A stretch of DNA of 64,000 nucleotides. Origin: Streptomyces sp. NBC_01283 (GTDB lineage Bacteria; Actinomycetota; Actinomycetes; Streptomycetales; Streptomycetaceae). The stretch spans positions 7,722,001 to 7,786,000 of the forward strand of contig NZ_CP108430.1 of the NCBI RefSeq assembly GCF_041435335.1. Reading direction: 5' to 3'. A program made the position numbers and the translations under genes. Positions 51,292 to 54,073 of this stretch are shown piece after piece. The notes under the pieces are model-generated. The model did no database searches and was not told the origin of the DNA. It saw only the letters and a list, made by a program, of their open reading frames with translations. The stretch's first letter is position 1. Each line of letters starts with the position of its first letter.

Positions 51292-51651
51292 CTAGCCCGA
51301 AACCGGTGCCGCGCTCCCGGCGTCCCCGCCGGGGCGGTCCGCCCCGTCCGCCCCGTCCTCACCGGGGCGGGCCACCTCTCCGGCGTCGGCGAGCCGGACG
51401 AGCTCGGTGAGCCAGCCCGGCGCCTCGCCGCCGTCGATGACGGTCCCGGCTCCTGCCGTACGCGCCGGTTCCGTGCCGGGGGCGGCGGAGTAGCCGCTCG
51501 TGACGGACTCCGCGGCGGGCCCGGCGTCGACGGCGCCCGTCGCGTCCGCGGCTCGCGGCACGGGGAGCTGCCGGTCCGCCGCGGGCGCCCCGGGCACCAC
51601 GGCCCCTGGGGCCGCGCCCGCGTCCTCCGCGATCGTGATGTGCAGTTTCAT
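51292..51651 (-). CDS. Small Ala/Gly/Pro-rich protein, last gene of the S8 protease locus
   Basis: 119 aa. It starts MKLHITIAEDAG, a short beta strand, continues through a disordered Ala/Gly/Pro region and contains one ordered-looking segment, GGEAPGWLTELVRLADAG (about residues 73-90). No Cys, no signal peptide, no known family. It lies 29 bp downstream of the stand-alone beta-domain gene. It could be a protease substrate, a peptide precursor or an adaptor; sequence does not decide. Confidence 0.6.
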   Translation of the reverse strand: MKLHITIAEDAGAAPGAVVPGAPAADRQLPVPRAADATGAVDAGPAAESVTSGYSAAPGTEPARTAGAGTVIDGGEAPGWLTELVRLADAGEVARPGEDGADGADRPGGDAGSAAPVSG

Positions 51652-51680
51652 GGCCGTTCCCCTCGTCCAGTTGAGGACCG

Positions 51681-51935
51681 CTAGTTGAGGACCGCGTACC
51701 GGCCTTCGAAGTTCATCTGGGTGCTGCCGATGTTCTTCACCGTCAGCCAGTACGTGACCGTCGTCGACGAGGCGCGCTCGACCTCGGTCTCCCACTCGAT
51801 CTGCGGGCTGCCCGTCTGGGGCGTCGTCGGCATGAAGTACCAGATGACGTGCCAGCCCTGCGGCCAGTTGAAGGTGAACCAGCGCCCGGTCTGTCCGGGG
51901 TTGAGTGTTCCGGTGAACTGTGTGCCTACTCGCAT
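51681..51935 (-). CDS. Stand-alone copy of the S8 protease C-terminal beta domain
   Basis: 84 aa, almost entirely equivalent to the last 84 residues of the protease encoded upstream: GTQFTGTLNPGQTGRWFTFN aligns with GVQFRGTLAGNRTGRWFTFN, and both contain HV-W, a TSP/TTP-RTG-PQI segment and an F-AVL end. The shared FNWP..WHV motif is rich in Trp/His. It looks like a beta-sandwich recognition domain without an enzyme attached. Strong AGAGGA upstream of the ATG. Made together with the protease, it may compete with or anchor it. Confidence 0.8.
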   Translation of the reverse strand: MRVGTQFTGTLNPGQTGRWFTFNWPQGWHVIWYFMPTTPQTGSPQIEWETEVERASSTTVTYWLTVKNIGSTQMNFEGRYAVLN

Positions 51936-51948
51936 CGTTCTTTTCCTC

Positions 51949-52000
51949 TCACCATCCGAGAACCGCGAGAACCGCGAATCACCATCCGAGGACCGCGAAC
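51949..52000 (-). repeat. 30-bp-offset direct duplication of the protease 3' end
   Basis: TCACCATCCGAGRACCGCGA occurs at 51979 (the protease stop region) and again at 51949 in the intergenic space. In the second copy minus-strand codons again read LAVLGW-stop, a fossil of a duplicated C-terminus, pointing to tandem duplication as the origin of the stand-alone domain gene. Confidence 0.65.
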
Positions 52001-53781
52001 CGGGCCTCGAAGTCGACCGAGTCGGCCACGAGGTTGGTCACGTCGATCCAGTACGTCGCGTAGGTGTCGTTGGCCCGCTCGACCCGGACCTTCCAGCCGA
52101 TCTGCGGGGCGCCGGTGCGCGGGCTCGTCGGGACGACGGTCCACACCACATGCCAGTGCGCGGGCCAGTTGAAGGTGAACCAGCGGCCGGTGCGGTTCCC
52201 GGCGAGGGTGCCCCGGAACTGGACGCCGACCCAGCTGCTCGTCTGGAGTGCCGCGGGGATGAGCTGCCGCAGGTCCGGACGCCTGCCGATGCGCTGGGTC
52301 GCCGGGCGGCCCGGCGCGTCCTGCTGTGCCGAGCCGGTGGCGCGCAGCAGCTCCCGGGAGCGTGCGGGCGACAGCGGGATACGGCCGGCCGCGCGCAGGA
52401 CGCCCTGGGTGCCGGCGAGGGCGCCCACGACGATGGGCGAGGCGCTTGACGTCCCGCTGAACTGGTCCGTGTACCAGAAGTCCTGGTCGGCGCCCGCCTG
52501 GAGGTCGCCGTATCCGGTGGTGGTCACCTCGCGTCCCCAGCCCTGCGCGTCCACGCAGGCGCCGTAGTTGGAGAAGTCGAGGCGGGAGCGGTCGGGGCCG
52601 TGCTGGCGGCCGTGGGTGCCGGGCGGCGGCGCTCCGGCACCCACGAGCACGGCGCCCGCGTCCAGCGCGGTGCGCCGGAAGGGGTTGCGCCACCAGGCGG
52701 GGAAGCCCGCCCTCGGGGTGTCGTAGTCGGCGTGGTCCAGGTCCTCCGCCCCGTTGCCCGCGGCCTCGACGACGGTGATGCCCTTGTTGACGGCGTAGCG
52801 GATGGCCAGGTAGTCGTCCGGCCACCACTCGACGGCGATGTACCCCTGCTGGCCGACCCCGGTCGCGTGCGGCCCCGCGCGGTGGATCTCCAACAGGATG
52901 ATGTCGCCGGGGCCGAGCCGGTCGGCGGCGTTGCGGATCGCCGTGGCCGTGGGGATGGAGAAGGCGGACGCGCTGGTGACGGCGTCCGGCGCGATCCCGG
53001 TGATCCCGAACGCGTTGACGTCGCCGCCGATCTCGCCGAGCACCGCGGTGCCGTGATCGGTGTCCGTGCTCCCGGTGCCGGAGACGATGCCGCCCTGGTT
53101 CAGCCGCAGGTCCTCGTGGGTGAAGCGCCAGCCCCACTCGCAGTCGATCACCCGGACACCGGCGCCGCGCCCGCCGGCCAGGGTCCACGCGTAGCGGGCG
53201 TCGACGCCGCCCGGAGCCGCGTCGAGATAGCCCTGCCGGGCGGTGAAGTCCGGGGTCACGGGCGGCGCGTCGGCGCCCAGCGGCCGCATGTCGTTGAGCG
53301 GTGCGTGCGCGGCCCCCTCGCTCTCCTCGCCCTTCTTCTTCGGGACGACGTCGGGCACGGCGAGCGCGGCGGCGGGCTTGACGTAGGCGCCCTCCACGGC
53401 GTCCGACGCGCGGAGCCGCTCGGCCAGTTCGTCCAACTGGTCCTCCGGCGCGTCGACATGGAAGAAGAGCGCCATCCGGTCGACGGTCTCCAGCGTGGCG
53501 TCGTCGCCCCCGGAGTGCTCCGAGGGCACCCCCGCCTGAGCGCGCAGCCTCTCCTGGTCGGCGCCGAACAGCGGCCTGATGGTGACGTCCTCCCGGGCCG
53601 CCACGGCGTCGAGGGCGCTCACGGAGATGTCCGCCGCGGCGGTCGCGCCGGTCGGGGTGATCTGTACCCCGGCGTCGGCGCGCGTGACGCACACCAGCTC
53701 AGGGCGTCCGAAGAGTGGTCCGAATCCTGGAGCCGGGCGGCTGTTCCCCCGGCTGTTCCCCGCACCTGATCGCTGTGGCAC
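51979..53781 (-). CDS. S8 (subtilisin-like) serine protease with C-terminal beta domain, no visible signal peptide
   Basis: 600 aa. A prodomain-like region (about 25-145, ending ASDAVEGAYVKPAAALAVP) precedes an S8 catalytic domain with intact triad: Asp213 in VIDCEWG, His243 in DHGTAVLG, oxyanion Asn343 in AAGNG, and Ser445 in FSGTSSASP. The last 84 residues are a separate beta domain (VGVQFRGTLAGNRTGRWFTF). I place the start at the GTG 53781, 6 nt after a perfect AAGGAG, rather than at GTG 53799. The N-terminus (MPQRSGAGNSRGNSRPAPG) is not a Sec or Tat signal, so secretion is uncertain. It is the centre of a four-gene locus. Confidence 0.9.
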   Translation of the reverse strand: MPQRSGAGNSRGNSRPAPGFGPLFGRPELVCVTRADAGVQITPTGATAAADISVSALDAVAAREDVTIRPLFGADQERLRAQAGVPSEHSGGDDATLETVDRMALFFHVDAPEDQLDELAERLRASDAVEGAYVKPAAALAVPDVVPKKKGEESEGAAHAPLNDMRPLGADAPPVTPDFTARQGYLDAAPGGVDARYAWTLAGGRGAGVRVIDCEWGWRFTHEDLRLNQGGIVSGTGSTDTDHGTAVLGEIGGDVNAFGITGIAPDAVTSASAFSIPTATAIRNAADRLGPGDIILLEIHRAGPHATGVGQQGYIAVEWWPDDYLAIRYAVNKGITVVEAAGNGAEDLDHADYDTPRAGFPAWWRNPFRRTALDAGAVLVGAGAPPPGTHGRQHGPDRSRLDFSNYGACVDAQGWGREVTTTGYGDLQAGADQDFWYTDQFSGTSSASPIVVGALAGTQGVLRAAGRIPLSPARSRELLRATGSAQQDAPGRPATQRIGRRPDLRQLIPAALQTSSWVGVQFRGTLAGNRTGRWFTFNWPAHWHVVWTVVPTSPRTGAPQIGWKVRVERANDTYATYWIDVTNLVADSVDFEARFAVLGW

Positions 53782-53800
53782 AGCTGACTCCTTCACCACG

Positions 53801-54073
53801 TTACGGAAGGTCCGCCGGTGGTTTCACATAGGCGGCCTCGACTGCCGGGTGACCGCGCAGGGCCGTGGCGACGGCCTCGGCGTCCACACCGGCGGGGACG
53901 GCGACCCGTCGCCATCCGATGAGGGACGGGTCGTCGGCTCCCGGGTGCAACGGCTCCGCCGTGACGCCGAACCGCCGCTCCAGAAGACCCCGTACGTCTT
54001 GGGCGTCCGCGGTGCCCGCGGTCGCGGGGCGCGGTGGGGTTCGGAGCTGGACGATGACTTCGGCCTCGGTCAT
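53801..54073 (-). CDS. Stand-alone prodomain-like protein (I9-inhibitor-like) of the S8 locus
   Basis: 90 aa. Its second half (RRVAVPAGVDAEAVATALRG, HPAVEAAYVKPPADLP) parallels the prodomain of the protease (LAERLRASDAVEGAYVKPAA), and its LLERRFGVTAEPLHPG parallels VAAREDVTIRPLFGAD. Subtilisin prodomains act as folding chaperones and inhibitors, and free I9 proteins inhibit in trans. It is read just before the protease (19 bp between stop and start). Start ATG 54073 (MTEAEVIVQL). Confidence 0.75.
   Translation of the reverse strand: MTEAEVIVQLRTPPRPATAGTADAQDVRGLLERRFGVTAEPLHPGADDPSLIGWRRVAVPAGVDAEAVATALRGHPAVEAAYVKPPADLP

Follow-up and report, generated by a model that had tools for sequence, protein, structure and literature searches.

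A subtilase gene of Streptomyces sp. NBC_01283 in a conserved row with free copies of its prodomain and C-terminal domain and a motif-bearing peptide

Few enzymes have been studied as thoroughly as the subtilases, whose prodomains are textbook intramolecular chaperones and inhibitors. Here we analyse a locus in a 64,000-nucleotide (nt) stretch of the genome of Streptomyces sp. NBC_01283 (contig NZ_CP108430.1, positions 7,722,001 to 7,786,000; hereafter the window). In this locus the gene of an S8 (subtilase) protease, B, stands in a row with three small genes: A encodes a stand-alone prodomain-like protein, C a free copy of the C-terminal domain of B, and D a small protein with repeated motifs. 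The same gene order is found in other phyla, the homologies between the free proteins and the parts of B are clear, and the C-terminal domain and the motif peptide occur together and are exchanged together.

Parts of this arrangement resemble described systems. Passages of PMC6993865 list stand-alone I9-type propeptide-like inhibitors of eukaryotes (Pleurotus peptidase A inhibitor 1, yeast peptidase B inhibitor and Arabidopsis subtilisin propeptide like inhibitor 1) as well as the prodomain mimics Toxoplasma MIC5 and Plasmodium SUB1-ProM, the latter encoded beside subtilase genes. Like A, these are small separate products related to or mimicking a subtilase prodomain, and the Plasmodium gene also adjoins subtilases. 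However, as these passages describe them, they are eukaryotic single inhibitors, whereas A is bacterial or archaeal, putatively inhibitory, and part of an operon-like row that also encodes a motif peptide and a free copy of the C-terminal domain. Passages of PMC7159879 describe multi-domain conflict systems whose adaptor domains (EADs) are common to effectors and other proteins, and where the same small domain is fused to an enzyme and present elsewhere in the operon. Unlike these, the present cassette has no recognised NTPase/effector array, its domain belongs to no family over cut-off, and a motif peptide is present.

Two further comparisons concern graspetide-type ATP-grasp loci and other subtilases. 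According to passages of PMC8939145, branches 7 and 8 of the graspetide ATP-grasp enzymes are linked to several peptidase families and peptide-modifying genes and have no detectable precursor; a subgroup of our protease clade, with locus L063 as its example, likewise carries an ATP-grasp-family gene. In contrast, the ATP-grasp maturase model TIGR04187 finds nothing in the window's genome (other maturase models were not tried), and the main text of that paper contains neither 'subtilisin' nor 'subtilase'. Regarding PatA/PatG and the mycosins, B and the L063 protease show weak similarity to mycosin and L063 also to PatA, but the scores are far below the cut-offs: B reaches 37 bits against the 278.75 of the mycosin model TIGR03921 (type VII secretion protease) and is not a member, and L063 reaches 30.6 against 421.05. 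No description of the cassette was found in the open-access literature searched (titles, abstracts and passages; subscription papers are outside that scope).

Layout and spread of the locus

The original prediction had placed here four same-strand genes: a protease with an intact triad and no visible Sec or Tat signal, a 90-amino-acid (aa) protein with the prodomain pattern, an 84-aa protein matching the protease end and a fourth small protein. All of this is borne out by the following features and by the comparisons below.

51292-54073, minus strand: the complete row of four genes
53801-54073, minus strand: gene A, stand-alone S8-prodomain-like protein of 90 aa with the C-terminal sequence AYVKPPADLP; 42% identity to the B prodomain and a family profile match
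51979 to about 53781, minus strand: gene B, S8 (subtilase) protease of about 600 aa with prodomain, catalytic domain with intact triad, and C-terminal domain
51979-52233, minus strand: fused type I C-terminal domain of B; 57% identity to free C
51681-51935, minus strand: gene C, free copy of the B C-terminal domain, 84 aa
51292-51651, minus strand: gene D, 119-aa low-complexity protein with an N-terminal MKLHITI strand followed by VDAGPA, DGGEAPGWL and DAGSAAP motifs

The genes are closely packed in the order A-B-C-D, with gaps of 19, 43 and 29 nt if B starts at the GTG at 53781. This is the likeliest start, favoured because of the GGAG in front of it and the agreement with relatives that start MPQRSGA. 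It gives a protein of 600 aa, as compared to 606 aa from the first GTG. Note that gene starts are guesses throughout.

For comparison we used 80 S8 loci, the best 80 of at least 435 relatives obtained by scanning species genomes with an S8 alignment; they are neither a census nor a random sample. The type I C-terminal domain is present on 37 of these 80 proteins (hidden Markov model search). By the tree labels, type I loci occur in nine phyla, one of them archaeal: Actinomycetota, Thermomicrobiota, Armatimonadota, Bacteroidota, Acidobacteriota, Cyanobacteriota, Pseudomonadota, Chloroflexota and Methanobacteriota. The same gene order in other phyla places the arrangement far beyond chance. The original prediction was staked on the small genes being conserved beside S8 homologues, and they are: A in 59 of the 80 loci, and, of the 37 type I loci, free C in 27 and D in all. 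In a search of 5.8 billion proteins C has 276 matches; for B there are at least 6,078 among the 8,000 candidates scored from 5.8 billion, many of which need not belong to the clade.

Few genomes of the window's genus carry the C-type domain (6 of 392, the window's own counted). Such a patchy distribution, and the pairing of a protease with a putative inhibitor, would fit a toxin-antitoxin-like or conflict cassette, in which a toxic protease B is neutralised by A and C serves as a decoy. This role had been proposed in the original prediction and did not find support. None of the four proteins hits a PADLOC family at E up to 0.1, and the viral contigs searched contain no relative of B or of C. 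Phages gave a single weak match. Plasmids have an S8 relative in 9 of 72,556 records, and two of these cover at least 80% of B. Moreover, A is missing in 21 of the 80 loci. The gene families common to more than 6 of the 80 loci within 4.5 kb are the modules themselves, the ATP-grasp genes of one subgroup with their partner, and an ABC-ATPase family. There is no defence family among them, as judged by reading and without a PADLOC search of these neighbours. The ABC-ATPase genes (11 of 80 loci) vary in distance and strand and are taken as chance neighbours. We consider a conflict role very unlikely.

The protease and the free prodomain

B scores 36.5 bits against the Pfam Peptidase_S8 cut-off of 21.8 and is a member of the S8 family. 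Asp219, His249, Asn349 and Ser451 (P0001 numbering) are invariant across 16 sequences, and the Asp-His-Ser triad has the GTSxA context. No signal-peptide-like segment was found on B or on any of the 80 related S8 proteins by a crude hydrophobicity test over the possible starts, which is the only way signal peptides were judged here.

The free A protein is clearly related to the S8 prodomain. In the window, A is 42% identical to the B prodomain over 64 residues. Specifically, the family of free A proteins (60 sequences) aligns with the prodomains of the clade (76) with an hhalign probability of 99.0 (E 6e-18, 90 columns), as compared to 0.2 for A against C and 0.3 for A against 70 catalytic domains. 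The last value comes from a better-cut set; an earlier, badly cut one had given 95.6 over 37 columns. Curated models do not recover this relationship. Window A scores 14.6 bits against the Pfam prodomain family PF22148, below its cut-off of 21, and at E up to 0.1 none of 53 A proteins matches Inhibitor_I9. A profile search of Protein Data Bank (PDB) sequences with A gave nothing convincing (best E 0.015, an entry named 'GCG binder').

Free A adjoins the S8 gene in 59 of the 80 loci, lying upstream in the same orientation in 53 of the 59. Of the 37 type I loci, 30 have it. The 59 include L031 and L063, which are outside the frame-length filter of the scripted count (57). No free A match at E < 0.01 is farther than about 0.65 kb from the S8 gene. 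A profile search did not detect A in the sequence around six non-S8 proteins that carry the type I domain, while the S8 locus L121, a positive control, was detected. A is found with S8 and not with the type I domain on other proteins, so A goes with the S8 catalytic module. The window's genome has one free A; two more significant matches in long frames are B itself and a second S8 protein of the clade. The A proteins end at AYxKPxxxxP, which is where a prodomain tail would enter the subtilase active site. The natural reading of these sequence data is that A would be a trans-acting prodomain inhibitor. In two Chloroflexi loci (L027:401-769 and L029:6496-6972) the A frame may start with a lipoprotein-type signal and a lipobox. 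This is one of several possible starts, and it suggests that A could act there as an extracytoplasmic inhibitor.

The C-terminal domain and the motif peptide

C is 57% identical to the C-terminus of B over 81 residues (107 bits, E 5e-33). Neither C nor the type I domain belongs to a Pfam or NCBIfam family over cut-off, and a profile of a free homologue matches no PDB sequence. High identity between neighbours raises the question whether the small genes are mere debris, or arose by recent tandem duplication of parts of B, and have no function of their own. Local re-duplication or gene conversion does seem to have occurred in Haloferax, L054 and G103. On the other hand, when 71 C-type domains are placed on a tree, sorting them into 'free' and 'fused' takes 6 label changes as compared to 23 for shuffled labels (21 of the 68 forks are starred as unresolved), which means that the split is old and that the two lineages are largely separate across phyla. 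Free C is also more constrained than B. In two close Streptomyces pairs the ratio of non-synonymous to synonymous substitution rates (dN/dS) is 0.15 (against L013) and 0.03 for free C, the lowest of the four genes, and 0.30 and 0.38 for B. For A it is 0.27 and 0.88. Such strong purifying selection shows that free C is not debris, and D is present in all 37 type I loci. The conservation data largely refute the idea of debris, which is scarcely credible.

D is the gene that follows C, or B where C is missing. Its family has an N-terminal IxIxI strand (MRIxIET in many cases) and, as a rule, two to four repeats of [DN][AGI]G with Pro or Ala next, one of which often reads DAGxPPxWLxxAI. No Pfam or NCBIfam family is found over cut-off, and the 72 matches of the D profile in the protein database bear no functional name; D is a new family. 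All 37 type I loci have a D-like gene downstream. Our own gene caller gave a downstream gene for only 25 of these, that of L042 wrongly, hence the motif scan: 35 loci come from it (in L039 it picked the wrong frame and the real D was read directly), and L047 and L074 were read directly. The 43 loci that do not have the type I domain contain no convincing D, the single scan match (L049) being judged spurious by eye; it is important to note that this control is internal, as the motif was read from the very loci that were scanned. Among the loci seen only after the motif had been defined, several motifs are present in the D proteins of G687 and G732, while that of G508 has the strand and one motif. 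In Haloferax (L026 and L074) a D-like protein, downstream of C, is seemingly fused to a conserved 50-aa segment (MDYEAIVSGTV...).

The C-terminal domain and the motif peptide change together. Eight S8 proteins of the clade carry a different C-terminal domain of 73 aa (type II), whose profile against type I gives 0.2. A free copy of type II follows in six of the eight. Six of the eight also have a small protein in which PPPP-type motifs recur, five of these proteins with a strand near the N-terminus. Type II belongs to no Pfam or NCBIfam family over cut-off. A search of 394 genomes of the class gave no match to it; this set held no positive control.

The type I domain is found also on proteins that are not S8 proteases: astacin-like (G001, G732), BNR/sortilin-like (G103) and NAL1_N-like ones (G346, and G508 by eye). 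Each of these five carriers has a D-like gene and three of them a free C; in G365, a sixth and weak case, no D was seen. C and D are therefore independent of S8 chemistry and go with the tail domain whatever protein bears it. In Streptomyces G001 (L010) and G732 (L123, by eye) the astacin-like protease with the type I domain is followed by a D-like gene, free C and a YscW-like gene; the G001 protein is over the cut-off of the NCBIfam model LegP. The YscW-like genes recall the YscW homologues of ATP-grasp branch 7 in passages of PMC8939145.

These carriers bear on the possibility that the C-type domain and D form a module for signal-peptide-independent export or surface display, where C would tag the enzyme and D would tether it. 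Subtilases, astacins and BNR/sortilin proteins are domain types usual in secreted proteins. The same tag is borne by all three, and the 80 S8 proteins have no recognisable signal peptide by the crude hydrophobicity test. The YscW-like family that closes the two astacin loci is named after a secretion pilot protein, and the possible lipoprotein-type start of A in L027 and L029 would point in the same direction, yet this start is one of several possible ones. Against export, no transporter is found at a fixed position within 4.5 kb, and intracellular subtilases exist. We regard an export module as quite unlikely.

Other S8 tails of the clade carry different repeats, DUF5648 in L072 and WxNASW-like ones in L073, each followed by its own repeated motif, GSFET- or DDGxGFGGG-like. 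The tails of L072 and L087 end in a strand such as GVTVNINVNKSN. From their sequences, these tail parts of L072, L073 and L087 are perhaps D-like pieces fused in cis.

Possible mechanism and the ATP-grasp branch

The cassette may be viewed as two separable modules: the first made of A together with the prodomain and catalytic domain of B, the second of the B C-terminal domain, free C and D. We infer the following scheme for their action. A would be a trans-acting copy of the prodomain whose AYxKPxxxxP tail binds the catalytic groove of B, and it would help B to fold, keep it inactive, or both, so that B could be controlled after its own prodomain has been cut off. D would be an unstructured, multivalent scaffold in which the DAGxPPxWL-type motifs are ligands of the C-type domain, the N-terminal IxIxI strand joining one of the partners by beta-addition. 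In this way D would bring B and free C together, and free C might set the spacing or the occupancy of the assembly. The cellular role would be controlled proteolysis of some target, either within the cell or following non-classical release. We favour the explanation that A acts on B in trans as an inhibitor or chaperone and that D gathers B and C, with our confidence in it evenly balanced. The first module is a variant of something known, since stand-alone propeptide inhibitors are described for eukaryotes in passages of PMC6993865.

A number of observations weigh against this scheme. A is absent in 7 of the 37 type I loci and in 21 of all 80 (among the 21, L047, L052 and L066 start within 300 bases of the end of the available sequence), and free C, absent in 10 of the 37, is not obligatory. 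Of 53 A proteins, 5 give weak matches to PF22148 at E up to 0.1 (best 0.017), and 8 match the ACT-domain model ACT_4 (best 5e-5). The pairing signal between A and its own B is weak: the own prodomain scored first in 4 of 57 cases, with a median rank of 15. In one Streptomyces pair A is weakly constrained (the dN/dS of 0.88, with few synonymous changes), and D evolves fast (1.02 and 0.62 in the two pairs). In Haloferax, L054 and G103 the fused and free C copies cluster within the locus, as would be expected if they had been re-duplicated locally or had undergone gene conversion. The D motif control, as said, is internal.

One branch of the clade offers a different view of D. In 12 of the 80 S8 proteins the chain ends in a KE-rich linker, an HFIxxxLRPD-like motif and a short tail, and 7 of the 12 have KDxKDxE. 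In 10 of these 12 loci (L063, L064, L068, L078, L080, L084, L086, L088, L089 and L090) a gene of one ATP-grasp-containing family lies within 1.2 kb downstream; of the remaining two, L050 has the gene farther off and in L081 the contig ends. The ATP-grasp gene of L064, the member tested, is RimK-like and scores against graspetide-type maturases, best against a ribosomal-peptide maturase model, in each case below the cut-off. A second conserved gene stands in between in 9 of the 10 loci, and its L063 copy, which was tested, has no Pfam or NCBIfam family. It might correspond to the truncated ATP-grasp of branch 8 in passages of PMC8939145. The C-terminal tail of the S8 protein may be the missing graspetide-type precursor in these loci. 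The window locus itself does not look like a graspetide locus: reading the open reading frames of 48.5-57 kb revealed no ATP-grasp maturase.

In an alternative that draws on that branch, D could itself be a substrate: a multi-copy propeptide that B would cut after recognition by the C-type domain, releasing short peptides that act as signals or resemble ribosomally synthesised and post-translationally modified peptides. Elsewhere in the clade the protease's own tail would take this part and be cross-linked by ATP-grasp enzymes. The leader-like N-terminal strand and the repeated cores of D agree with this, as do the KE-rich tails with their ATP-grasp neighbours and the peptidase-linked branches 7 and 8, for which passages of PMC8939145 report no detectable precursor. 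But D-like genes stand also beside astacin-like, BNR/sortilin-like and NAL1_N-like proteins, so D does not depend on cleavage by an S8 protease. Moreover, the window's genome has no TIGR04187 match, and no dedicated exporter was recognised, the ABC-ATPase family being variable in place and strand. In our opinion it is rather unlikely that D is a substrate.

Returning to the scaffold scheme, a more general design is possible, though we hold it doubtful. A protein fused to a domain X, the domain X on its own, and a flexible peptide with repeats of an X-specific motif would form a unit in which X and motif are exchanged together. Signal-less subtilases of many phyla would use it with a trans-acting prodomain, and astacin-like and other proteins would use it separately; in one branch the S8 tail would be the missing ATP-grasp precursor. 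Tentatively, as part of this design, the second module would be an undescribed one, with no family over cut-off and no description in the open-access literature searched.

A prokaryotic operon that provides a second prodomain in trans (59 of the 80 relatives, in bacteria and archaea) would be a new layer of subtilase control. The paired exchange of tail domain and motif peptide predicts specific protein-peptide interactions for two dissimilar and unannotated domain families. The ATP-grasp branch suggests where the precursors of the peptidase-linked ATP-grasp clusters might lie, a question left open in passages of PMC8939145.

Some neighbours of the clade may be mentioned in their own right. 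A contractile-tail-sheath-like gene lies 0.7 kb upstream of the Salegentibacter cassette (L028:3766-5949), a single case noticed by eye for which no family search was made. The second S8 protein of the clade in the window's genome is encoded at L111:3182-5146 within L111:2470-5146 (C1:7298000-7306500). It is followed by a Gln-rich protein of 219 aa whose C-terminal part is weakly like the S8 tail (26 bits, suggestive only), and a Gln-rich neighbour similar to that of L111 adjoins L092.

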